Assembly (NCBI GenBank): GCA_009692555.1
Contig: SHYY01000004.1
Span: 17,901 to 81,900, forward strand
Source: Myxococcales bacterium
Lineage (GTDB): Bacteria; Myxococcota_A; Polyangia; Palsa-1104; SHYY01
DNA: 64,000 nucleotides
Direction of reading: 5' to 3'
The notes below the pieces were generated by a model that did no database searches, had not been told where the DNA came from, and saw only the letters and a list, made by a program, of their open reading frames with translations. Below are positions 1-57,135 of the stretch, in pieces. The first letter of the stretch is position 1, and each line of letters begins with the position of its first letter. A program made the translations under genes and the position numbers.

Positions 1-809
1 CGGCCGGGTGGGCAGTCCGCCGCCTTCAGGCAGCCGCACGCGCCAGCGATGAGACAGACCGGACCGTCGCCGCTCTTGGCGCAGTCGACGCATGCCCCGC
101 CCGCGACCGCGCACGCGCCGTCGCCGACCGCGGCGCACTGGTTTTGTGCACTGCAGCAGAAGCCCTTGGCGCACACGCCGGGCTGGCCGACGCCGCCGGC
201 GACGCAGGAGGCGGTGCAGGCCCCTCCCGCGCAGGTGGGCGTGGCGCCGCCGCAGGGAGCACACACCCCGCCGTTGGTACCGCACGCTCCGTTCTCGTTG
301 CCGCCGCGGCAGGTGGCGCCGTCGCAGCAGCCGCCGTTGCACAGGAGCGCGCCGGCGCAGGCCTGCGAGCACACGGCGCTCTTGGGATCGCACGCGCTTC
401 CCTTCGGGCAGTCCGCGGGTCCGGCGCAGCCGCATTTCTTTGCGACGCACGCGGAGCCGCCGCTGTTGCCGGTGCAGTCCTGGCACGCGCCCGGTGCGCC
501 GCAGCTTTGCGGTGTGCCTTCGCACGCCGGCAGCGCGAGGTCGGCCGCGCCGTCGGACGACGCAGCGTCCGCGGCGATCAGTCCATCGACGGAGAGGGCG
601 TCCTCACCTTCCGCGGAGTCCACCACCGCCAGATCCGGGTCGGCCGGGCCCTGATCGAGGAGCACCCCATCGAAGGCCGGCGCGCGATCGGCAGACGGCA
701 GCGCGGCGAGGTCGGCCGGGGCGGCATCCGCGGTGGCAACAGGAGGCTCCTCGCCGCACCCGACGAGTGCGACGACCACCCACGGCAGCGCCCACAGCTT
801 GAGGTTCAT
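1..809 (-). CDS. Cys-rich repeat lipoprotein, C-terminus beyond window
   Basis: The frame opens with an ATG at 809 and stays open to base 1, so the C-terminal part is missing. The N-terminus MNLKLWALPWVVVALVGCGEE is a lipoprotein signal with lipobox LVGC. An Asp/Ala-rich linker of about 60 residues follows, then Cys-rich modules with CNGGCCDGATC, CGCAGPADCPKG and CAKSGDGP motifs. It is a paralogue of the next two genes downstream in coordinate. By family knowledge such modules are disulfide-bonded extracellular domains; the function is unknown. Probably anchored in the outer membrane facing outward. Confidence 0.85.
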   Translation of the reverse strand, partial: MNLKLWALPWVVVALVGCGEEPPVATADAAPADLAALPSADRAPAFDGVLLDQGPADPDLAVVDSAEGEDALSVDGLIAADAASSDGAADLALPACEGTPQSCGAPGACQDCTGNSGGSACVAKKCGCAGPADCPKGSACDPKSAVCSQACAGALLCNGGCCDGATCRGGNENGACGTNGGVCAPCGGATPTCAGGACTASCVAGGVGQPGVCAKGFCCSAQNQCAAVGDGACAVAGGACVDCAKSGDGPVCLIAGACGCLKAADCPPG

Positions 810-860
810 CCGGATGCGCCTCTTGCCGACGCTCGCGAGACATGCCGAGCGGCAGAGGCG

Positions 861-869
861 ACGGTAGCA
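861..869 (-). promoter_or_regulatory. candidate extended -10 promoter of the first Cys-rich lipoprotein gene
   Basis: On the minus strand the bases read TGCTACCGT, the same nine bases found 43 bp before the second Cys-rich gene (3917-3925). The start ATG lies about 52 bases downstream. No good -35 box is visible, which fits an extended -10 promoter. Inferred from position and recurrence only. Confidence 0.4.
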
Positions 870-936
870 TACGCTGCCGTGCGTTAGAAGCGGTGCCGAG
901 CGGGAAGAGGGGTTGGAGCGGAAGGAGAGAAGGAGG

Positions 937-967
937 AACCGGGCGCCGGCGATACCGACGCCCGGTT
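937..967 (-). terminator. terminator-like hairpin after second Cys-rich gene
   Basis: AACCGGGCG and CGCCCGGTT form a perfect 9-bp stem around a 13-base loop, 10 bases past the stop codon at 977. The minus strand continues into a pyrimidine run (CTCC/CTTC) rather than a clean U tract. The third paralogue has an equivalent hairpin at the same place. Confidence 0.6.
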
Positions 968-976
968 CTCGCTACA

Positions 977-3874
977 TCAGTTGCAGAGGCCGTTCGCGAA
1001 CATGAGGTTCGCGCAGCAGCCGGCCGCCGTCTGAGCGGTCTGGCCCTTGGTGGCGCAGATGCAGTTGAAGGAATTGGCGGCGCCGACGTGATTGGAGCAG
1101 CAGGCGCGCGGCTCGGCACCAAGGCCGAAGTTCGTTTTTGTGCCGTTCGGGAGGCACTGGCAGGTGCCATTGCCGGCGACGGAGAGCGAGCAGCAGTTCC
1201 ACGGATTGGCCGGCGCTCCGGCGTTCACCCCGTTGAGGTTGCAGGTGCAGGTGCCATTGACATCCATGCCGGTGCAGCAGGCGTTGCCGACTCCCTTCAG
1301 GTTGTAGATACCCGGGACGCAGCAGACGTTGGTGGCGAGGTTGCAGCCTGCGCGGAAGGCGTTCGGGTTCACGAAGCAGGAGTTGGCGGTGTTGCACGAA
1401 AGGGTGCCGCCGTCGAGGTTGGCGATGGTGCAGCCGCACGAGCCGTTCTGCGCGTTGCACTTCGGGCCGGCGTTGCAGGTGTCGAGGCAGCTATTGCACT
1501 GACCGCCGCTGACGCCGCACGCGTTGTCGGCGACGCCCGGACGGCAGGTGCCGCCGAGGCAGCAGCCGCCGTTGCAGCCACCCGCCGCCGCGCCGGCGTA
1601 GCCGCAGGCGTTGGTGCAGGTGCTGCTGTTGGTGTCGCAGGTCTGACCCGCCTGGTTGCCGGCGGCCGCGAAGCACTCGGACTTCTGGGTGCAGCCGCAC
1701 GACCAGTTGTTGTTGACCGGGACGAGGCACTTCTTGCCCGTCGAGGCGTTGCCGCACTTGAGGCAGGCACCCGTGTAGCCGCAGGTGGCGTCCGCCTTGC
1801 CGCCGACGCACTTGCCGGCGGAGCAGCAGTTGCCGCCGCCGCACACGCCGTTGGCGAGCGCACCGCACGCCGAGGTGCAGACCCCGGCGGTGCAGGTCGG
1901 GGTCGCGCTAGCGCCCGGCTTGCAGTCGAGGCAGGCGCCGCCAACGCCGCCGCAGGCGGTGTTCGAGCTGCCGACCGCGCAGGTGCCGCCGCTGCAGCAG
2001 CCGCCGTTGCACAGCTGGTTCGCGGTGCAGACGTTGGTGCAGAGCTTCTTCACGGTGTCGCAGGCCTGGAGGGCGCCGCAGTCCGACGACTTGTTGCAGC
2101 CGCAGCTCGTGCCGTTGATGCACGCGTGGCCACCGACGTTCGCCGAGCAGTCGACGCAGGCGTTGGCCGCGCCGCAGGCGGTGGGGGCATTGCCGGCGAG
2201 GCACTGGCCATTCACCGCGGCCGAGCAGCAGCCGCCGTTGCAGGCCTGCTGCGCGTTGCAGGCCACGACGCAGAGGTGCGACACGACGTTGCAGGCGAAG
2301 CCCACCGCGCAGTCGGCTGCCTTGTCGCAGCCGCAGGCGTTGTTGTTCATCGCCCCAGGACGGCAGAGGTGCCCGGCGTTGTTGGTCGTGCAATCGACGC
2401 AGGCGGCCATCCCGGTGATGAGGCAGGCGGCAGCCACGGTGCCGTTCGAGCAGGCACCGTTACCGCCGCAGCAGCCGAACTGGCACTTGTTGTTGGCGTC
2501 GCACTTGTTGTTGCAGACCTTGTTCACGCAGCCGGTGCTGGAGATCGGGCAGTCGGCCGGGAAGGCCGCGCAGCCGCAGACGCCGCCGTTGCCCAAGGCC
2601 ACGCACACCTTGCCGTTCGGGTTGCCGGTGCAGTCGGCGCAGAGGCCGCCGTTGTTGCCGCACTGCTTGTTGGTTCCCTCGATGCCCTTCTGGCAGGTCC
2701 CGTTGACGGCGGCCGAGCAGCAGCCACCGTTGCACAGGTTGTTGGCGTCGCACTTGTTGGTGCAGACGTTGGTCACGGCGTCGCAGGAGAAGCCGACGGC
2801 GCAGTCCGCCGCGACCTTGCAGCCGCAGAAGGTCTTGGCGTTGATGGTGAGGCAGGCGGTGCCCATCGCGTTGGCGACGCAGGTGCCGCACGCCGCCATG
2901 CCGAGGGCGCACGAGGCCTGCAGGTTGCCGGCGAGGCACTTCTTGTTCGCGACGTCGCAGCAGCCGCCGTTGCACGGGGTGTTCATGTCGCACGCCGCGC
3001 CGCAGACGCCCGCGGTGCAGGCCTGGTTGGCGGCGCAATCGGCCGCCTTGGCGCAGCCGCAGGTGCCGTTCATCAGGCAGGTCGGACCGTTCGCGCTCTT
3101 GCTGCAGTCGTTGCAAGCGCCGCCGGCGAGGCCGCAGGCGCCGTTGCCGATCGCCGCGCACTGGTTCTTCGCATCGCAGCAGAAGCCCATCCCGCAGGCC
3201 GCGCCGCCCATGCCACCGATGACGCAGGTCGCGGTGCAGGCGCCAGCGGTGCAGGTCGGAGTGGCGCCGCCGCAGGCCGCGCAGGCCTTGCCGTCGCCGC
3301 CGCACTTGCCGTTGTCATTGCCGACGAGGCAGTTCGCGCCGTCGCAGCAGCCGCCGTTGCAGGCGAGACCGCCGGCGCAGGTCGGGTCGCACTGGCCGTT
3401 GGCCTGGCAGGCGAAGCCCTTCGGGCAGTCCGAGGAGCTGTTGCAGCCGCACTTGAGCGCAACGCAGGCCTGACCGCCCTGGTTGCCGGTGCAGTCCTGA
3501 CATGCCCCCGGGGCGCCGCAGCTCTGCTGCGTGTTGCCGCAGGGCATGACCGCGGGGCCATCGCCAGCGTCGCTTCCGCCGCCGCCGATGTCGTCGGTAC
3601 CACCGATGTCGTCGGTGGGGAGAATGGTCATGTCGGCCTCTACGACGACCGTCATGTCGTCGTCCTCAACGATCGTCATGTCGATCTCTGGGACGACGGT
3701 GAGGTCTTCCTTGACGCCGCCGCTGTCGACCTTGGGCTTTGCCAGGTCAGGCGTGGGGACCGGCGGCATTTCCGGATCTTCCGTCGTTTCGCAACCGACG
3801 CTCCCCAGTCCGGCCCCCAGGAGGGCCAGCGGGAGCACAATCCTGAGCGTCCACTTCGTTCCCATTTTTGCCAT
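977..3874 (-). CDS. Cys-rich repeat lipoprotein (965 aa)
   Basis: Signal peptide with lipobox GSVGC (residues about 24-28), then an acidic linker with repeated DMT/DDIGG elements to about residue 110, then Cys-rich modules to the end. The core CNGGCC occurs six times (after LA, TP, NL, QA, QL and GG), with variants such as CQFGCC and CGGGNCC. Between them are C-x-C and CGCxxxxDC motifs of the type CGCNSSSDCPKGFACQ. A strong ribosome site TTGGAGG precedes the ATG. Protein and DNA are strongly similar to the gene at 4043-6907, indicating tandem duplication. Likely a disulfide-rich cell-surface protein; no enzymatic motif is visible. Confidence 0.9.
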   Translation of the reverse strand: MAKMGTKWTLRIVLPLALLGAGLGSVGCETTEDPEMPPVPTPDLAKPKVDSGGVKEDLTVVPEIDMTIVEDDDMTVVVEADMTILPTDDIGGTDDIGGGGSDAGDGPAVMPCGNTQQSCGAPGACQDCTGNQGGQACVALKCGCNSSSDCPKGFACQANGQCDPTCAGGLACNGGCCDGANCLVGNDNGKCGGDGKACAACGGATPTCTAGACTATCVIGGMGGAACGMGFCCDAKNQCAAIGNGACGLAGGACNDCSKSANGPTCLMNGTCGCAKAADCAANQACTAGVCGAACDMNTPCNGGCCDVANKKCLAGNLQASCALGMAACGTCVANAMGTACLTINAKTFCGCKVAADCAVGFSCDAVTNVCTNKCDANNLCNGGCCSAAVNGTCQKGIEGTNKQCGNNGGLCADCTGNPNGKVCVALGNGGVCGCAAFPADCPISSTGCVNKVCNNKCDANNKCQFGCCGGNGACSNGTVAAACLITGMAACVDCTTNNAGHLCRPGAMNNNACGCDKAADCAVGFACNVVSHLCVVACNAQQACNGGCCSAAVNGQCLAGNAPTACGAANACVDCSANVGGHACINGTSCGCNKSSDCGALQACDTVKKLCTNVCTANQLCNGGCCSGGTCAVGSSNTACGGVGGACLDCKPGASATPTCTAGVCTSACGALANGVCGGGNCCSAGKCVGGKADATCGYTGACLKCGNASTGKKCLVPVNNNWSCGCTQKSECFAAAGNQAGQTCDTNSSTCTNACGYAGAAAGGCNGGCCLGGTCRPGVADNACGVSGGQCNSCLDTCNAGPKCNAQNGSCGCTIANLDGGTLSCNTANSCFVNPNAFRAGCNLATNVCCVPGIYNLKGVGNACCTGMDVNGTCTCNLNGVNAGAPANPWNCCSLSVAGNGTCQCLPNGTKTNFGLGAEPRACCSNHVGAANSFNCICATKGQTAQTAAGCCANLMFANGLCN

Positions 3875-3916
3875 CGTCCAGCCTCCAAGAATACGTTAGG
3901 TTCAGCAGTGTCGGGG

Positions 3917-3925
3917 ACGGTAGCA
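3917..3925 (-). promoter_or_regulatory. candidate extended -10 promoter of second Cys-rich gene
   Basis: Minus-strand TGCTACCGT, identical to the box before the first paralogue. A start of transcription near 3910 would give a leader of about 36 bases containing the GGAGG ribosome site. The third paralogue has only a weaker equivalent (TGCGACCAT, minus strand, around 6950-6958). Confidence 0.4.
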
Positions 3926-3996
3926 CGCAGGGCTTCCAGGATGGAAGCTTTTTTTGAAGGGGAAATGGTGGTGCGGGAGAGGGGGGAAGGAAGCGG

Positions 3997-4025
3997 CTGG
4001 GCGCCGGCGTCGTACCGGCGCCCAG
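3997..4025 (-). terminator. terminator-like hairpin after third Cys-rich gene
   Basis: CTGGGCGCCGG and CCGGCGCCCAG form a perfect 11-bp stem with a 7-base loop, 18 bases past the stop of the gene at 4043. The minus strand runs on into CCGCTTCCTTCCCCCC rather than a U tract. Confidence 0.6.
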
Positions 4026-4042
4026 TCGCGGGGATCAGAGAG

Positions 4043-6907
4043 CTACGGCGTGCAGGTGAGCGGGCCGTTGTTCATGGAGGGCTTGCAGGTGAGGCCCATC
4101 GCGCAGCCGGCCGTGGTGAGGCAGGTCTGGTTCAGGATCGCCGCCACGCAGTTGCCGCCGCTCAGGAGGCTGCAGCGGAGCGAGCAGCAGCTGGTGTTCT
4201 GACCACTTAAGCCGCAGCCACCCGGCGACATTCCGTTCGGGATGCAGATGCAGGCGTTGTTGTTCTGGACCTGCGTGCAGCAGGCCGAGGCGTTGCCGCC
4301 CGAGGGCTGGCTGACCGCGATGCAGGTGCAGTTGCCACCCATCGTCATCGCGCCGCTGCAGCAGGCCGCTGCCATGCCGCCGCTCGGACGGACCTGGAGG
4401 GCCGTCGTCGCGATGCAGCACGAGCCACCGACGATGACCGTGTTGCAGCCGTTGCGCTGGCCGCAGGCCATGCCGCCCTGAGCGCACTGGGTGGAAGCGG
4501 TGCAGCCGCACGACCCGTTCGCCGCGTTGCAGGCCGGGCCCGGGTTGCAGGCCGTGCCGCAGTTGTTGCACTGGCCGCCGGCGACGCCGCAAGCGTTGTT
4601 CTGATTTCCCGGACGGCAGGTGCCGCCGAGGCAGCAGCCGCCATTGCACCCGGTCGCGCCCATGTAGCCGCAGCTGTCGGTGCAGGTCTTGGCGGCGGTG
4701 TCGCAGGTCTGACCCGCCATGTTGAGGGCGGCCTTCGAGCAGTCGGCCGCCGCGGAGCATCCGCACACCGACTTCATGCCGGTCGTGATGCAGACGTGAC
4801 CGGTCGACGCGCTGGTGCAGTCTGCGCAGGTGTTGGTGTAGCCACAGGTGCTGTTGGCCTTCCCGCCGACGCACTTGCCGGCAGAGCAGCAGTTGCCACC
4901 GCCACACGTGCCGTGGCCGAGATCACCGCAGGCCGAGGTGCAGACGCCGGCGGTGCAGGTCGGGGTCGCGCTTGTGCCCGAGTTGCAGTTGGTGCAAGCG
5001 CCGCCCGCCGCGCCGCAGGCGCTGTTCGAGGAGCCGGCCGCGCAGGTGCCGCCCGAGCAGCAGCCACCCTTGCAGAGCTGGTTGGCGTTGCAGACGTTGG
5101 TGCACTGGTGGCTGACCGTGTTGCAGGCCTGGAGGTCGCTGCAGTCGGCGCTGACGTTGCAGCCGCAGGCCAGGCCGCCGATGCACGCGTGGCCGACCTG
5201 CGCGTTGGCGCAACTGACGCACGCCACCGCGGTTCCGCAGGCGGTCGGGGCGTTGCCCGGGACGCACGAGCCGGCGTTGCAGCAGCCGCCGTTGCAGGCC
5301 TGCTGGGCGCTGCACTGGGTCACGCAGAGGTGCGTGGTGATGTTGCACGCGAAGCCGACCGCGCAGTCGGCCGCCTTGTCGCAGCCGCATGCGTTGCTGC
5401 CGTTGCCGACCGGGCGGCAGTAATGGCCCGCGTTGTTGTTCGAGCAATCGACGCAGGCCGCCATGCCCGCGATGAGGCAGGCCGCGGTGGCGCTGCCGTT
5501 CGCGCAGGCGCCGTTGCCGCCGCAGCAGCCGAACTGGCACTTGTTGTTGACGTCGCACTTGTTGTTGCAGACCTTGTTCACGCAGCCGGTGCTCGAGATC
5601 GGGCAATCGCCGGGGAAGGCGGCGCAGCCGCACACACCGCCGTTGCCGGAGGCCACGCACACCTTGCCGATCGGGTTCCCTGCGCAATCGGCGCAGAGGC
5701 CGCCGTTGTTGCCGCACACCTTGCTGGTGCCCTCGATGCCCTTCTGGCAGGTTCCGGCCACCGCCAGGGAGCAGCAGCCGCCGTTGCAGAGGTTGTTCGA
5801 GTCGCACTTGGTGGTGCAGGTGTTGGTGACGGTGTCGCACGCGAAGCCGACGGCGCAGTCCGCCGCGACCTTGCATCCGCAGAACGTCTTCATTGCGACG
5901 GTGAGGCAGGCGGTGCCCATCGCGTTGGCCACGCAGGTGCCGCAGGCCGCCATGCCGAGGGCGCAGCCGGCCTGGACGTCACCGAGGCTGCACTTCTTGT
6001 TGGCCACATCGCAGCAGCCGCCGTTGCACGCGGTGTTCGCGTCGCAGGCGGTGCCACAGACGCCGTTGGTGCAGGCCTGGTTGACGGCGCAGTCGGCCGC
6101 CTTGGCGCAACCGCAGGTGCCATTCATGAGACAGGTCGGGCCGTTCGCGCTCTTGCTGCAGTCGGTGCAGGCACCGGCAGCGACGCCGCAGGCGCCGTTG
6201 GCGATCGCCGCGCACTGATTCATCGCGTTGCAGCAGAAGCCCATGCCGCACGCGCCACCGCCCATGCCACCGACGGCGCAGGCCGTGGTGCAGGCGCCAG
6301 CCGAGCAGCTCGGGGTGCCGGCGCCGCAGGCCGCACAGGCCTTGCCGTCACCGCCGCACTTGCCGTTGTCGTTGCCGGAGAGGCAGTTCGCGCCATCGCA
6401 GCAGCCGCCGTTGCAGGCGAGGCCGCCGGCGCAGGTCGCGTCGCACTGGCCGTTGGCCTGGCAGGCGAAGCCCTTCGGGCAATCCGCCGCGCTGTTGCAG
6501 CCGCACTTCAGGGCGACGCAGGCCTGACCGCCCTGGTTGCCGGTGCAGTCCATACAGGCGCCGATGGCGCCGCAGCTCTGCTGGGTGTTCAGGCAGTCGG
6601 GGCCGGGCTTGGCCATGTCGGGGTCGGGCCCATCGGTGCCGACCATGTCCTCCGTCACGATCGGTGCATCGTCGGTGGAGAGGTCGGCCCCCTCCATGGC
6701 GATGTCCGGCTCGTCCATCGAGATGTCGGGCTCCTCGACGAGGGCCATGTCCCTCTTCACCGAGAGGTCAGGCTTCGTCGTCACCGCGAGGTCGTTAGCG
6801 GGCGTACCACCATCCTCCGTGACGTCGTTGCCGCAACCGAGCAGCCCGGTGGCGGCACCGGTCAGACTCACCGTGAGAAATAAGCGCAACGTCCATTTCA
6901 GGGTCAT
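4043..6907 (-). CDS. Cys-rich repeat lipoprotein (954 aa)
   Basis: Starts MTLKWTLRLFLTVSLTGAATG with lipobox LLGC, followed by an acidic linker rich in DxS/PDI elements to about residue 105. The rest is the same Cys-rich module series as the neighbour, with CNGGCC (five copies plus CKGGCC) and CQFGCC. The two proteins align over nearly their whole length; they differ most in the linker and in the last ~100 residues, where this copy has CCSGAMTMGGNCTC-type units. Ribosome site TTGGGAGG lies 7 bases before ATG. Function unknown; envelope or surface role inferred from the signal and disulfide-rich build. Confidence 0.9.
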   Translation of the reverse strand: MTLKWTLRLFLTVSLTGAATGLLGCGNDVTEDGGTPANDLAVTTKPDLSVKRDMALVEEPDISMDEPDIAMEGADLSTDDAPIVTEDMVGTDGPDPDMAKPGPDCLNTQQSCGAIGACMDCTGNQGGQACVALKCGCNSAADCPKGFACQANGQCDATCAGGLACNGGCCDGANCLSGNDNGKCGGDGKACAACGAGTPSCSAGACTTACAVGGMGGGACGMGFCCNAMNQCAAIANGACGVAAGACTDCSKSANGPTCLMNGTCGCAKAADCAVNQACTNGVCGTACDANTACNGGCCDVANKKCSLGDVQAGCALGMAACGTCVANAMGTACLTVAMKTFCGCKVAADCAVGFACDTVTNTCTTKCDSNNLCNGGCCSLAVAGTCQKGIEGTSKVCGNNGGLCADCAGNPIGKVCVASGNGGVCGCAAFPGDCPISSTGCVNKVCNNKCDVNNKCQFGCCGGNGACANGSATAACLIAGMAACVDCSNNNAGHYCRPVGNGSNACGCDKAADCAVGFACNITTHLCVTQCSAQQACNGGCCNAGSCVPGNAPTACGTAVACVSCANAQVGHACIGGLACGCNVSADCSDLQACNTVSHQCTNVCNANQLCKGGCCSGGTCAAGSSNSACGAAGGACTNCNSGTSATPTCTAGVCTSACGDLGHGTCGGGNCCSAGKCVGGKANSTCGYTNTCADCTSASTGHVCITTGMKSVCGCSAAADCSKAALNMAGQTCDTAAKTCTDSCGYMGATGCNGGCCLGGTCRPGNQNNACGVAGGQCNNCGTACNPGPACNAANGSCGCTASTQCAQGGMACGQRNGCNTVIVGGSCCIATTALQVRPSGGMAAACCSGAMTMGGNCTCIAVSQPSGGNASACCTQVQNNNACICIPNGMSPGGCGLSGQNTSCCSLRCSLLSGGNCVAAILNQTCLTTAGCAMGLTCKPSMNNGPLTCTP

Positions 6908-16224: not shown

Positions 16225-16953
16225 ATGTCCCCCTCGGCGAAGCTGCGGGCGGGCCGGTCTCCGAGGGGCTTCACGCTCATCGAGATCATGCTCGTCCTGG
16301 CGATCGTCGGGGCGGCGATGGGGGTGGCGGTGGTCTCCTTCCGCGCCGTCGATCGCGCCACCGCGCGCAGCAACTCGAGCCGCCTCGCCGCCGCGATCCG
16401 CTACGTCTACGACCGCGCCGTCACCACCGGCGGGTACTACCGCATCGTCCTCGATCTGACCGCCAACAAGTACTGGGCCGAGCGCTCCGATGACCGCTTC
16501 TACCTCGCGCGCGAGCCCGAGAAGTCCTCGCGCGGCCGCGCCCCCGACGAGGAGGCCAAGGAGAAGAAGCTGAAGGAGGACGAGGATCGCGCGAAGCAGC
16601 AGGTGACGGGGCTGGCCAAGGAGCTCTTGCCGCCGCCCGCGCCGCGACGGGCGCGCTTCCAGGCCTTCACCGACTCGACGCTCCCGAAGATCGACCTCAA
16701 AGGCTGCAAGCTCCGCGACGTGCTCACCCGTCGCCAGCGCGACCCCTACACCGAGGGCAAGGCCTACCTCTACTTCTTCCCCGACGGGCACACCGAGCGG
16801 GCGCTGATCCACATCGAGGACACCAACGGCGACGTCTACTCGCTCTCCGTCCACCCGCTCACCGGGCGGGTCACGCTGAAGTCGGGCGACGTCCGGGCGG
16901 GGCGCGACTTCGGCGAGACCGACGACGAGGGGCGCTCCGAGGCGCCGCGTTGA
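16225..16953 (+). CDS. gspH: minor pseudopilin GspH
   Basis: 242 residues. Prepilin site SPRG^FTLIEIMLVLAIVG with a 15-residue leader. The body has the GspH-like start SFRAVDRATARSNSSRLAAAIRYV, then a Lys/Glu-rich charged insertion (about 95-130) and a beta-rich C-terminus with AYLYFFPDGHTERALIHI. GspH sits near the tip of the pseudopilus. Starts one base after the gspG stop. The leader SPSAKLRAGRSPRG looks like translated repetitive DNA rather than a conserved leader. Confidence 0.9.
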   Translation: MSPSAKLRAGRSPRGFTLIEIMLVLAIVGAAMGVAVVSFRAVDRATARSNSSRLAAAIRYVYDRAVTTGGYYRIVLDLTANKYWAERSDDRFYLAREPEKSSRGRAPDEEAKEKKLKEDEDRAKQQVTGLAKELLPPPAPRRARFQAFTDSTLPKIDLKGCKLRDVLTRRQRDPYTEGKAYLYFFPDGHTERALIHIEDTNGDVYSLSVHPLTGRVTLKSGDVRAGRDFGETDDEGRSEAPR

Positions 16954-17822
16954 TGCGATCGCATCATCATAAAAAGGAACCCTGGGAGGGTTCCTTTGAC
17001 CTCCCGCGGGAGCGCCACCAGGCAAAGCCCGGCGGCGCATACGCGACCAAGATCGCTGGCGGCTTCACGCTCCTCGAGATGATGGTCGCGCTGGCGATCC
17101 TCGCCGTGTCGCTGACCTGGCTGGTGCAGGCGACGATGCGGGCGATCCAGTCCGCGAACCACGCCAAGCTGGTCACCACCGCCACCTTCCTCGCCCGCGC
17201 TCGCCTCGTCGAGCTCGAGGACGAGCTGGCCGAGAAGGGCTTCACCGACGATTCGTTCGCCAAGGAGGCCTCGGGGGACTTCGAGGAGCAGGGCTTCAAG
17301 CGCTTCCAGTGGACGGTGGTGATCGACAAGATCGAGCTGCCGAGCACCTCCGAGGTGGAGGCGCTGGTGTCGAAGGGGGCGGACTCGCAGGAGACGCTCG
17401 GCGGGATCGGCGGGGGCCCAGCCTCCGCGTCGTCGCCCGGGGGCCTCTCGAACACGCCCGTCGGTGGCGGCGCCGGTGGCGGCGCGGGGATGCTCGCCTC
17501 GCAGTTCGGGATCATCAAGGATGTCCTCGAAAACTCGATCCGCCGCGCGCGGGCGAAGATCACCTGGAGCGAGGGCAAGAAGGAGGAGATGGTCGAGGTG
17601 GTCGAGTACCTGACCGATCCGAAGCGGGTCGATCAATCGATCCAGCTCGGCATCGGCGGCGCAGGCGCTGGCGGAGCGGGGGGCGGAGCAGCCGGTGGCG
17701 CGGGCGGTGGCGCGGGCGGCGGCGCGGGCGGCGGCGCGGGAGGCGGCGCGGGCGGCGCTGGCGGTGGCAGCTCCGGCGGTGGCAGCTCCGGCGGCGGCAC
17801 CACCCGGGGATCGGCCCGTTGA
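16953..17822 (+). CDS. gspI: minor pseudopilin GspI with repeat-derived leader
   Basis: 289 residues; ATG overlaps the gspH stop (TGATG). The prepilin site IAGG^FTLLEMMVALAILAVS comes after a 37-residue leader, versus 6-10 usually. Bases 16971-17047 of this leader match the 81-bp repeat at 40276-40445 in reverse orientation, so leader residues such as PRERHQAKP are encoded by an inserted repeat. The core pseudopilin runs to about residue 230, and a tail of some 55 Gly/Ala/Ser residues (DNA 17659-17812, 12-bp GGCGGCGCGGGC-like units) closes the protein. Minor pseudopilin of the GspI-J-K tip. Whether such a leader is cleaved normally is unknown. Confidence 0.9.
   Translation: MRSHHHKKEPWEGSFDLPRERHQAKPGGAYATKIAGGFTLLEMMVALAILAVSLTWLVQATMRAIQSANHAKLVTTATFLARARLVELEDELAEKGFTDDSFAKEASGDFEEQGFKRFQWTVVIDKIELPSTSEVEALVSKGADSQETLGGIGGGPASASSPGGLSNTPVGGGAGGGAGMLASQFGIIKDVLENSIRRARAKITWSEGKKEEMVEVVEYLTDPKRVDQSIQLGIGGAGAGGAGGGAAGGAGGGAGGGAGGGAGGGAGGAGGGSSGGGSSGGGTTRGSAR
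16971..17047 (-). repeat. copy of the 81-bp repeat family inside gspI
   Basis: A hairpin (GGAACCC/GGGTTCC) is followed by TTTGACCTCCCGCGGGAGCG and CACCAGGCAAAGCCCG. The reverse complement of the tandem repeat at 40276-40445 has the same order: hairpin, TTTGACCCCCCGCGACGAGC, CACCAGGCGAAGCCCG. By eye about 80% of 65 aligned bases agree. The insert keeps the gspI frame open. Confidence 0.75.
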
Positions 17823-21671: not shown

Positions 21672-22304
21672 ATGGCGCTTTCCGACAAATTGAACGAGCT
21701 GCGCGGGCGCTGGGATCGGCTCTCCGATCGCGAGCGCTCGCTGATCGCCGGCCTCGGCGCGGCGCTGGTGGTGGTGGCGATGCTCGGCATCGGCGTCTCG
21801 ATCGCCCAGGGGCTCTCCGACCTGGAGGACGAGAACGCCGACATGCGCCAGGCGCTGCGCGACATCGATCTCAACCGCGACTCCTACCAGCGCGCCAAGG
21901 CCAAGACCGCGCAGTTCGAGGTCAAGATGGGCCGCGGCGGAGTCCAGCTCCAGGGCCTCCTGGAGACCGCCGCCAAGGACACCGGGGTCGACATCGCCGA
22001 GATGTTGCCGCGCCAGGCCGCCCCGCTCGGCAAGAAATACCTGGAGCTCGCCGTCGATGTGCGCCTGCGCAAGGTGGGCCTCGATCCGCTGAGCAAGTTC
22101 CTGCGCAAGATCGAAACCGGTCCCAACCTGGTGGTGGTCACCGCCCTCGAGATCCGCTCGCGCGACGACAAGCACGAGGACCTCGAAGTGGAGGTCAGCG
22201 TCTCGTCCTACGAGCACGCCCCCGAGGCCAAGCCGGGCCACAAGAAGGACAAGGACAAGGACAAGGACAAGGACAAGGACAAGGACAAGGAGGACAAGGG
22301 ATGA
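21672..22304 (+). CDS. gspM: type II secretion protein GspM with Lys-Asp tail
   Basis: 210 residues. Cytoplasmic start MALSDKLNELRGRWDRLSDRE, one membrane helix (about 26-46), a short coiled coil (LEDENADMRQALRDID) and a ferredoxin-like periplasmic domain. The C-terminus is a run of seven Lys-Asp pairs encoded by an exact AAGGAC tandem repeat. Partner of GspL. The repeat tract could change copy number without shifting the frame, so tail length may vary between strains. Confidence 0.92.
   Translation: MALSDKLNELRGRWDRLSDRERSLIAGLGAALVVVAMLGIGVSIAQGLSDLEDENADMRQALRDIDLNRDSYQRAKAKTAQFEVKMGRGGVQLQGLLETAAKDTGVDIAEMLPRQAAPLGKKYLELAVDVRLRKVGLDPLSKFLRKIETGPNLVVVTALEIRSRDDKHEDLEVEVSVSSYEHAPEAKPGHKKDKDKDKDKDKDKDKEDKG
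22245..22286 (+). repeat. (AAGGAC)7 hexanucleotide repeat in gspM
   Basis: Seven exact copies of AAGGAC encode (Lys-Asp)7 at the C-terminus of GspM. The unit length is a multiple of three, so copy-number change alters tail length only. Confidence 0.95.
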
Positions 22305-30860: not shown

Positions 30861-30914
<54 letters not shown>

Positions 30915-31037: not shown

Positions 31038-31074
<37 letters not shown>

Positions 31075-39192: not shown

Positions 39193-39216
39193 AATTGTGG
39201 ACACCCGATCGGCGTT

Positions 39217-39225
39217 TGCTACATT
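39217..39225 (+). promoter_or_regulatory. extended -10 box before the outer-membrane barrel gene
   Basis: TGCTACATT. Transcription would start near 39232, which favours the TTG at 39245 as start codon over the GTG at 39197. Confidence 0.4.
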
Positions 39226-39244
39226 GCAGACCGGCCCACCGACC

Positions 39245-40264
39245 TTGACCCCTCCCCTCACACCGCGCCGCCTCTCCCTGATCCTGATCGGGCTGATCCT
39301 CGCCTCCACCGTCGGGCGCGCCTTCGCGATCGACGACGTGCAGACGCCGCGCGGTCTGGCGATGGGCGGCTCGGGACGCGCGATCGCCACCGGCTCGCTC
39401 GGACCGCTGCTCAACCCCGCAGGGATGGTAGCGATCCGCCAGTACTCGATGGAGGCGATGTACGGCTTCAACATCCAGAACCTCGGCAGCAGCATCCACC
39501 TCGGGATCACCGACTCGGTGACCAACAGCCGCCTGGCGATGGGGCTCTACTACCAGTTCACCAGCAGCACCCCGAAGTTCACCTACGGCGGCGAGGGCGG
39601 CCCCACCCAGGCGGCCCGCCAGGGTAACGAGACCGGCGTGGCGCTGGCCCTCCCGCTCGGCGAGCGCTTCTCGATCGGGCTGACGTCGAAGTACAGCAAC
39701 GTGACCACCGAGGTGGCGAACCCGGGCGCCAACATGGAGGTCGAGAAGGGGATGCCCGCGCCGCAAAAGACGCTGGTCCTCGACAGCACCAACGCCGCCG
39801 ACTCGAAGGGCTTCACCATGGATGCCGGCGTGATGCTGCGCCTCGGCGACTCCTTCCACATCGGCGTCTCGGGCCACAACTTCATCCCGCTCCACTCGGT
39901 GGAGGTCCCGATCGGCCTCGGCATCGGGCTCGGCTACATGATGGGCGCGAGCTTCGTCATCACCACCGACGCGCGGATCGACTTCGACAAGTACCGCCAG
40001 CCCGGCACCACCGACGAGAAGGGCAACCGCGTGCAGGGCGACCGGCGCACCACCGCGAAGATCAGCGGCGGCCTCGAGTACCTCGCCGGCGGGGTGGTCC
40101 CGATCCGCGCCGGCTTCGCCCACGACACCGGAATGCCGGGCAGCTTCCTCTCCCTCGGCATCGGCTACATGGGCAAGAGCTTCGGCATCGACCTCGGCTA
40201 CCGCCAGAAGGTGAACGGCGGCAACGAGGCGCTCCTGAACCTCGGCCTACGCGTCTTTCTGTAG
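39245..40264 (+). CDS. outer-membrane beta-barrel (FadL/PorV-like)
   Basis: 339 residues from TTG at 39245, chosen because a promoter box sits at 39217-39225; a GTG at 39197 would add 16 residues. Signal peptide LSLILIGLILASTVGRAFA. The mature N-terminus DDVQTPRGLAMGGSGRAIATG and PLLNPAGMVAIRQYSME matches the PRGxAMGGAxxA...NPAG start of FadL/PorV-like barrels. Strands alternate to the C-terminal LLNLGLRVFL. Such proteins carry hydrophobic compounds or act as attachment barrels. Specific role unknown. Confidence 0.78.
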   Translation: MTPPLTPRRLSLILIGLILASTVGRAFAIDDVQTPRGLAMGGSGRAIATGSLGPLLNPAGMVAIRQYSMEAMYGFNIQNLGSSIHLGITDSVTNSRLAMGLYYQFTSSTPKFTYGGEGGPTQAARQGNETGVALALPLGERFSIGLTSKYSNVTTEVANPGANMEVEKGMPAPQKTLVLDSTNAADSKGFTMDAGVMLRLGDSFHIGVSGHNFIPLHSVEVPIGLGIGLGYMMGASFVITTDARIDFDKYRQPGTTDEKGNRVQGDRRTTAKISGGLEYLAGGVVPIRAGFAHDTGMPGSFLSLGIGYMGKSFGIDLGYRQKVNGGNEALLNLGLRVFL

Positions 40265-40275
40265 TAGCGCGTGAT

Positions 40276-40445
40276 GGTCCCTTTCTACCAGCGCGTGAGC
40301 GACGGCGGGCTTCGCCTGGTGTCGCTCGTCGCGGGGGGTCAAAGGGACCCTCTCAGGGTCCCTTTCTACCAGCGCGTGAGCGACGGCGGGCTTCGCCTGG
40401 TGTCGCTCGTCGCGGGGGGTCAAAGGGACCCTCTCAGGGTCCCTT
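40276..40445 (+). repeat. 81-bp perfect tandem repeat (2.1 copies)
   Basis: Two identical 81-bp units (40276-40356, 40357-40437) and eight bases of a third. Each unit ends in AAAGGGACCC, which pairs with the GGGTCCCTTT of the next to make a 10-bp hairpin stem. 81 is divisible by three, so open frames run through on both strands but I do not regard them as genes. A diverged copy lies inside gspI (16971-17047). Located between the barrel gene and the ECF sigma gene. Confidence 0.95.
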
Positions 40446-40491
40446 GTCCTGATAGGATGGAACCCTTTCCGATCTGAAGGGTCCAAGTGCC

Positions 40492-41106
40492 ATGGGCGCC
40501 TCGCCCGATCCGCTCGGCATGACCATGATCCGCGAGCGGCTGCTCATTCGCCGTCTCCAGCAACGCGAGGAGCGCGCCTTCCAGGAGGTGGTGCGCCTCT
40601 ACCAGCACAAGGTGTGGAACCTCGTGTTCCGGATGATCGGGAGCCGCGAGGAGGCGGAGGACATCGCCCAGGAGGTGTTCGTCACCGTCTTCAAGTCGAT
40701 CGACGGCTTCCGTGGCGACTCGAAGCTCTCGACCTGGCTCTACCGGATCGCCGCCAATCACTGCAAGAATCGGATGAAGTACCTCGGGCGGCGCAGCTAC
40801 AAGACCACCGGCGAGCTGGACGAGGCGGCCGAGCGCGAGCTGCAGGGCGCGCAGCCGAGCGCGCTGACCCCGCACCTCGACGGGCCGGAGAAGGTGCTGG
40901 AGGGGCTGCAGATGGAGAAGCTGGTGCAGGAGGCGATCGCGCTGCTCGACGAGGATCACCGGGTGCTGGTGGTGCTGCGCGACGTGGAGGACCTCTCGTA
41001 CCAGGAGATCACCGCGATCACCGGGCTCGCGGAGGGGACCGTGAAGTCGCGGCTCCACCGGGCGCGGATGGCGCTCAAGGACTATCTGGCCAAGCGTGGC
41101 GGGTGA
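40492..41106 (+). CDS. ECF RNA polymerase sigma factor
   Basis: 204 residues. Region 2: RAFQEVVRLYQHKVWNLVFR, EEAEDIAQEVFVTVFKSIDG and FRGDSKLSTWLYRIAANHCKN. Region 4: LVQEAIALLDEDHRVLVVLRD, LSYQEITAITGLAEGTVKSRL with HRARMALKDYL. No region 3, as usual for ECF factors. The anti-sigma gene follows within 7 bases. Controls a stress or envelope regulon not visible here. Confidence 0.94.
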   Translation: MGASPDPLGMTMIRERLLIRRLQQREERAFQEVVRLYQHKVWNLVFRMIGSREEAEDIAQEVFVTVFKSIDGFRGDSKLSTWLYRIAANHCKNRMKYLGRRSYKTTGELDEAAERELQGAQPSALTPHLDGPEKVLEGLQMEKLVQEAIALLDEDHRVLVVLRDVEDLSYQEITAITGLAEGTVKSRLHRARMALKDYLAKRGG

Positions 41107-56921: not shown

Positions 56922-56988
56922 GGCGCGGGAGGATAGCGGACCCTGGCGGGGACCGCATCCTCATCGACGCAGGCGTTGCGAAGCGGGC

Positions 56989-57135
56989 ACGGGAACGGAA
57001 ACGGGGACGGGAACGGGGACGGGAACGGGAACGGGAACGGGAACGAAAACGGGGACGGGGACGGAAACGGAAACGGGAACGGGAACGGGAACGAAAACGG
57101 GGACGGGGACGGGGACGGGAACGGGAACGGGAACG
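56989..57135 (+). repeat. 147-bp hexanucleotide array (ACGRRR)
   Basis: About 24 units in perfect 6-bp register: mainly ACGGGA and ACGGGG, with some ACGGAA and ACGAAA. Lies between divergent genes, upstream of the zinc-ribbon membrane gene. The strong strand asymmetry (purine-rich plus strand) could favour unusual structure. It is open on both strands, but I see no gene in it. Confidence 0.95.

Follow-up and report, generated by a model that had tools for sequence, protein, structure and literature searches.

A small two-hairpin repeat of Myxococcota, found beside stop codons and in frame within conserved genes, has the features of a mobile palindromic element

Two identical copies of an 81-bp repeat stand in front of an ECF sigma factor gene of a Myxococcales bacterium (contig SHYY01000004.1), and a relative of the same repeat lies within gspI, a gene of type II secretion. 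What kind of sequence occupies both the upstream region of a regulator and the body of a protein gene, and does the array serve the sigma gene or has it merely come to rest there? We followed the repeat through the 64,000 nucleotides around it (hereafter the window), through the rest of the genome and into related genomes.

The window array and the copy in gspI

The 81-bp tandem described in the initial annotation is real: a repeat finder and TRF delimit units at 40276-40356 and 40357-40437, which are 100% identical and accompanied by 8 bp of a third, and the repeat score of 340 is the highest within the window. The hairpins claimed for it are equally well founded, both strands of the array folding well beyond shuffled sequences (z -6.4). 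The annotation also drew attention to frames open on each strand and to a unit length divisible by three. Two plus-strand frames and one minus-strand frame are indeed free of stops, so openness on both strands stands, but a special meaning for it is not supported: of shuffled 81-nt units, 91% likewise have one or more frames open on either strand once they are tandemised, so that such frames are unremarkable and expected for sequence this rich in GC. The tandem and its structure are thus far beyond chance; the open frames alone are not. Nor is a special meaning of 81 being three times 27 supported. The unit length is not universal, and tandem spacings elsewhere are 74, 78, 80, 81 and 83 nt.

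Read on the minus strand, the window unit starts with a hairpin AAAGGGACCCT-GAG-AGGGTCCCTTT, from which a linker leads to another hairpin, this one imperfect and with CGCG/CGCG as its closing bases (Table 1). The rightmost CTA of the third-unit remnant is the TAG stop of the upstream gene and sits at the array edge.

Comparison with relatives bears on how the repeat reached both loci. In a genome of the same genus (G001), the ECF sigma ortholog is 86% identical and about 84 bp, free of the repeat, separate the upstream TAG from the ATG; the ortholog of the upstream gene has its own TAG at the corresponding place, again without repeat. The same interval in the window measures 227 bp, about 170 bp of it repeat. 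The related copy in gspI, asserted at the outset, proved to be genuine but diverged. The GspI leader of the window reads MRSHHHK-KEPWEGSFDLPRERHQAKPGGAYAT-KIAGG/FTLLEM, the additional block being the element, and the leaders of 11 relatives are short and devoid of it (MKARGQKG/FTLLE, MKRG/FTLLE and similar). Because the repeat is missing from the G001 locus and the element from the leaders of 11 relatives, we regard both copies as insertions. Here as in relatives, gspI begins at a start codon that shares bases with the stop codon of the preceding gene, and no later in-frame start precedes the pilin motif, so the element peptide should be translated.

Table 1. Positions of repeat copies, neighbouring genes and the promoter-like motif in the window
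Feature	Position	Strand	Remarks
gspI, type II secretion pseudopilin	16953..17822	+	extended leader MRSHHHKKEPWEGSFDLPRERHQAKPGGAYATKIAGG/FTLLEM; N_methyl motif
Element copy in gspI prepilin leader	16972..17049	+	in frame, 26 codons; covariance model E 6.5e-15
Upstream gene, outer-membrane-type protein	39197..40264	+	weak PF13729 match, below cut-off; TAG end at array
Third-unit remnant	40262..40287	-	hairpin-1 start AAAGGGACC fused to element right end CACGCGCTACTA; read in sequence
Element copy B	40288..40366	-	81-bp unit identical to copy A; covariance model R1 E 9.2e-16 (G000:C273:58188-58266)
Element copy A, nearer ECF sigma gene	40369..40447	-	79 nt: hairpin 1, 7-nt linker, hairpin 2; covariance model R1 E 1.2e-14 (G000:C273:58269-58347)
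Altered promoter-like counterpart	40459..40477	+	GGAACC, 8 nt, TCTGA; presumed function only
ECF sigma factor gene	40492..41106	+	PF04542, PF08281 (Sigma70_r2/r4)

Anatomy, ends and distribution of the family

The element is about 80 nt long and has the plan [YYNA]-N-ATGGGAACCC-NNN-GGGTTCCCAT-ACCCTCCCGCG-(imperfect stem, GGC-NNN-GCC cap)-CACGCG-AYYR, the outer bases of hairpin 1 differing between lineages. In an alignment of 37 matches from relatives, fitted to the covariance model (R1; 79 positions, 27 pairs) and including a few reverse-strand shadows, 92% of cells in the two-hairpin structure are paired, compensatory cells number 118 against 45 in shuffles, and 18 pairs have changes on both sides; slid controls of the alignment lose half or more of the pairing. 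Covariation extends to a third position, as hairpin 1, GG[A/G]ACCC..GGGT[T/C]C, varies together with the linker C[T/C]CCCGCG: the A-T pair goes with a linker T in 146 copies and the G-C pair with C in 23, with 3 exceptions among 172, which suggests either that the bases can pair in another way or that a recognition motif occurs twice. An element has on average 4.86 of its six frames open, compared with 3.8 after shuffling.

The left boundary is YYNA followed by N-ATGGG and the right boundary CACGCG followed by AYYR; neither end is an inverted copy of the other, and no target-site duplication stands clearly above shuffled pairs. Left ends lie at -3 to 6 nt from the stop codon of the inward gene in 22 of 54 cases, as against 2.4% of intergenic positions in the control. 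For roughly 8 of the 22 copies within the genome of the window, a flanking gene takes its stop codon from the element, either from the CTA at the right end, which reads TAG on the opposite strand, or from the stop triplet at the left end.

A second small repeat (GAGGGCGCGCGCGAAGCGCGCGGGGTGGGCAGGGTGG...GTCCCGAAG), about 65-80 nt long, was read by eye as an insert, in one orientation or the other, within the apical loop of hairpin 2 at L117, L121, L122, L130, L141, L162, L172 and L173; it is inverted in L155, and a related form occurs twice in L089. Two of these long copies (L117, L121) lie in frame within genes.

A genome without further copies was the counter-case raised in the initial annotation, and it fails: a BLAST search with the 81-mer yields 13 matches at E<1e-7, the two array units included, and the covariance model about 22 copies, in a count drawn from model and pattern searches with reverse-strand shadows of tandem arrays left out. 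Copies are present in 7 of 57 relatives, numbering, with no more than 81 candidates scored per genome, at least 81 in G023, 71 in G047, 46 in G039, 40 in G014, 17 in G031, 10 in G001 and 1 in G008. An exact pattern is found in 119 stretches of GTDB genomes, nearly all of them MAGs of uncultured Myxococcales or Deltaproteobacteria and many, by their record titles, from fens, permafrost and groundwater; viral contigs hold no exact-pattern copy. A stricter pattern matches 2 of 379 sampled genomes of the phylum, both in the class of the window's genome. Given this incidence in relatives and phylum, the family has a patchy distribution and, within the genomes sampled, keeps to a single class.

Two loci in this survey deserve mention. 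A larger version of the window array stands at L137:5539-5913 (G023:C93), where five copies, some of them partly identical, follow one another head to tail at a spacing of 74 bp. A single copy (L104) sits on a contig binned as Chloroflexi (UBA12275), which was probably misbinned or received the element by transfer.

Copies within protein genes

The ability of the family to sit in coding DNA, first proposed from the gspI copy, is borne out in related genomes. Of 175 distinct copies, 22 were classed as intragenic by a script that looked for an open frame of coding character to either side, and a gene caller flagged a few more; gene calls around copies came from a home-made caller, and a host was accepted as a real gene only if it had a Pfam domain. 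By this measure there are, besides gspI, 21 copies at 20 further distinct sites, in genes for Lhr helicase, a PAS histidine kinase, a dynamin GTPase, a DUF6057 protein, a molybdopterin oxidoreductase, CcmF, an X-Pro/CocE hydrolase, a POR-type oxidoreductase, succinyl-CoA ligase alpha (sucD), an amine oxidase, MMPL, Lnb_N, a fatty-acid desaturase, LigA, FtsK, RlmN, a SpoU methylase, CarB, an MqnA-radical SAM protein and VgrG. The sucD copies apparently represent one and the same site in two MAGs.

Alignment to solved structures in the PDB places the element peptides as discrete additions. Residues 107-137 of LigA replace 4 residues of E. coli LigA, which makes an insert of 27 residues; residues 88-117 of SucD replace 3 of a solved ortholog, residues 387-429 of the CocE-like hydrolase replace 4 of a solved ortholog, and Lhr has about 26 additional residues (~194-220) within its DEAD domain; an example of the element peptide in LigA or SucD is SWEPSEGSQTLPR. 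For two hosts the insert is placed by Pfam context only: the POR-type oxidoreductase (L121) has no PDB relative, and the solved FtsK chains begin downstream of the insert (L196). Conserved proteins with an in-frame element, DNA ligase among them, are thus longer by about 25 amino acids.

Intragenic copies use all six frames and both strands of the element. Their length is divisible by three in 19 of 22 cases, compared with 125 of 175 overall, a share that one would predict if insertions that break the frame are lost. Part of the family thus resides in coding DNA as a matter of course. Where starts, leaders or domain boundaries of genes are annotated in these MAGs, they can contain element-derived peptides and should be read with this in mind.

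At one locus (L178:6430-7998) a single ORF joins VitK2_biosynth (menaquinone biosynthesis) and radical SAM domains with an element between them, possibly two genes fused through the element.

Nature of the element and its bearing on the sigma gene

Judging from sequence comparison, the repeat is very probably a mobile palindrome that resembles REPs and RPEs and is non-autonomous. All evidence for its mobility is comparative and comes from MAGs. We envision, tentatively, that the element would move as a folded single strand (or cruciform), with an enzyme acting in trans and short YYNA-like targets; a single-strand, hairpin-recognising (HUH-type) mechanism would fit its anatomy. With stop triplets (TGA, TAG) in both the target and the ends, an insertion would often hit or supply a gene's stop and be harmless. 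Since most frames of the element are open, those insertions into protein linkers and loops that have a suitable length would be tolerated and persist. All others would be purged, so that the element survives where it does no harm. On this reading the window array arose from one insertion behind the TAG of the upstream gene, followed by a head-to-tail duplication, which was probably recent because the two units are identical.

Elements of this kind are already known; what appears to be new is this particular family, with a unit of two hairpins, with its own hosts and with its enzyme missing. A close parallel in behavior is the RPE of obligate intracellular Rickettsia, a short palindromic repeat of 105-146 bp with terminal inverted repeats (PMC2229807, PMC3733652). 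Both are found between genes and in frame in many unrelated conserved genes, with peptides of comparable size. However, our element is about 80 nt long with two separate hairpins and its hosts are GC-rich Myxococcota with large genomes; the likeness drawn here is one of described behavior, so that the element is said to work like an RPE, not to be one. REPs lie mostly downstream of genes, often supply TAG stops through their ends and are in some cases intragenic (PMC3733652). The new family shares this general REP behavior, with many dispersed palindromic copies near gene 3' ends and termini that provide stop codons, and resembles GTAG and CGTC REPs further in its small palindromes, dozens of copies and some intragenic sites (PMC3733652), but it has no constant GTAG or CGTC tag. 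Moreover, a REP unit is one palindrome of 20-40 nt (PMC3733652), whereas the unit described here has two unlike hairpins in fixed order and spacing. As in REPINs, two hairpins form one small dispersed unit (PMC3116915, PMC8266576), although here neither hairpin is the inverted copy of the other and a RAYT linked to the element was not found. The MITE-like ERIC/RU-1, RU-2, RU-3 and Correia/NEMIS repeats are likewise small and non-autonomous, with open frames fused in frame to genes (PMC2229807, PMC2759123); our element differs in having neither terminal inverted repeats that span it nor a clear target-site duplication. Hairpin anatomy and boundary motifs would also suit an IS200/IS605-derived (PATE-like) element; a Y1 transposase linked to it was not found.

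A narrower version of the preferred reading is that the repeat is a GTAG-type REP whose RAYT has been lost or is missing from incomplete assemblies. An AGTAG/GTAG right end is present, on the other strand, in about a third of the copies in the window's genome and is often a TAG stop, as in GTAG REPs (PMC3733652). However, GTAG stands near the right end in only 7 of 116 copies from related MAGs, and neither the constant GTAG end nor the RAYT association of the GTAG super-family is seen. The Y1 transposase domain (PF01797) has no match in the genome of the window (G000, 80% complete), in G001, G023, G031, G039, G047 or in several other carriers, and five carriers without a match are rated 91-96% complete; none of the Y1 genes found elsewhere has a confident element within about 1.5 kb. 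We therefore rejected a Y1 transposase as the mover, as it was not found in most tested carriers and is unlinked to the element where present, and we consider a GTAG REP rather unlikely. CGTC-type REPs also have no dedicated transposase (PMC3733652).

A bolder proposal, which we hold to be slightly less likely still, is that this is a lineage-specific Myxococcota palindrome moved by an enzyme other than Y1/RAYT, targeted to stop-codon-like tetranucleotides and repeatedly adding peptides to essential proteins (LigA, FtsK, SucD) as a source of protein variation. If so, the three-way covariation of hairpin 1 and linker would be a recognition feature of that enzyme.

The initial annotation raised the possibility that the array influences the sigma gene, and it does lie directly upstream, at a distance of 46 bp. 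One could suppose that selection maintains it for regulation of the ECF sigma operon, where its double hairpin, once transcribed, would serve as an attenuator, as an RNA-stability element or as a spacer. Most of the intergenic region is indeed taken up by the array, and both of its strands fold strongly. ECF sigma orthologs are present in 12 of 12 genomes searched, and five keep GGAACY-N16-GTCTRA/GTCCAA just upstream of the gene, which we take to be an ECF-type promoter-like motif. The array ends about 13 bp upstream of the window's counterpart, in which the spacer is 8 nt as opposed to about 16-17 in orthologs; this proximity to a shortened motif is no more than suggestive of an influence on the ECF gene. 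Against selection for such a role, the same-genus ortholog and the other inspected relatives have no array, and other copies of the element adjoin unrelated genes. The array region has no match to an intrinsic terminator (G+C-rich hairpin and T run) or to a sigma-70-type promoter, and hairpin 1 in relatives is followed by AWACCC, not by a T run. We judge a dedicated regulatory function very unlikely and prefer to see the array as DNA that is for the most part selfish or neutral and whose effect on the ECF gene, if any, is incidental.

Least probable is a dispersed family of small-RNA or structural-RNA genes selected as RNA, since the strong covariation of its two helices would arise equally from a DNA palindrome, Rfam has no match in the whole 64-kb window, copies lie within protein genes in several frames and on either strand, and the distribution is patchy (8 of 58 genomes, including that of the window).

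The family appears to be undescribed so far, as judged from a limited literature search in which no relevant paper joined REPs or palindromic repeats with Myxococcota or Myxococcus. In-frame palindromic elements are best known from Rickettsia, and intragenic REP copies have been reported for some further species. Myxococcota with large genomes now add a clean family, whose in-frame sites number about 20, with ligA, ftsK, sucD and carB among them, and which offers an independent system. With it one can ask how a small mobile palindrome persists within a protein, and what enzyme is responsible for the movement of REP-like elements that have no RAYT.

The window contains other repeats. Blocks with a period of about 3.05 kb, 65-85% alike, extend over 12-6626 and look like duplicated repeat-protein genes, and perfect or near-perfect hexamer arrays (CGGGAA, CGGCGA, CGTTGC, AAGGAC) occupy 56984-57135, 30861-30912, 31038-31074 and 22245-22291.
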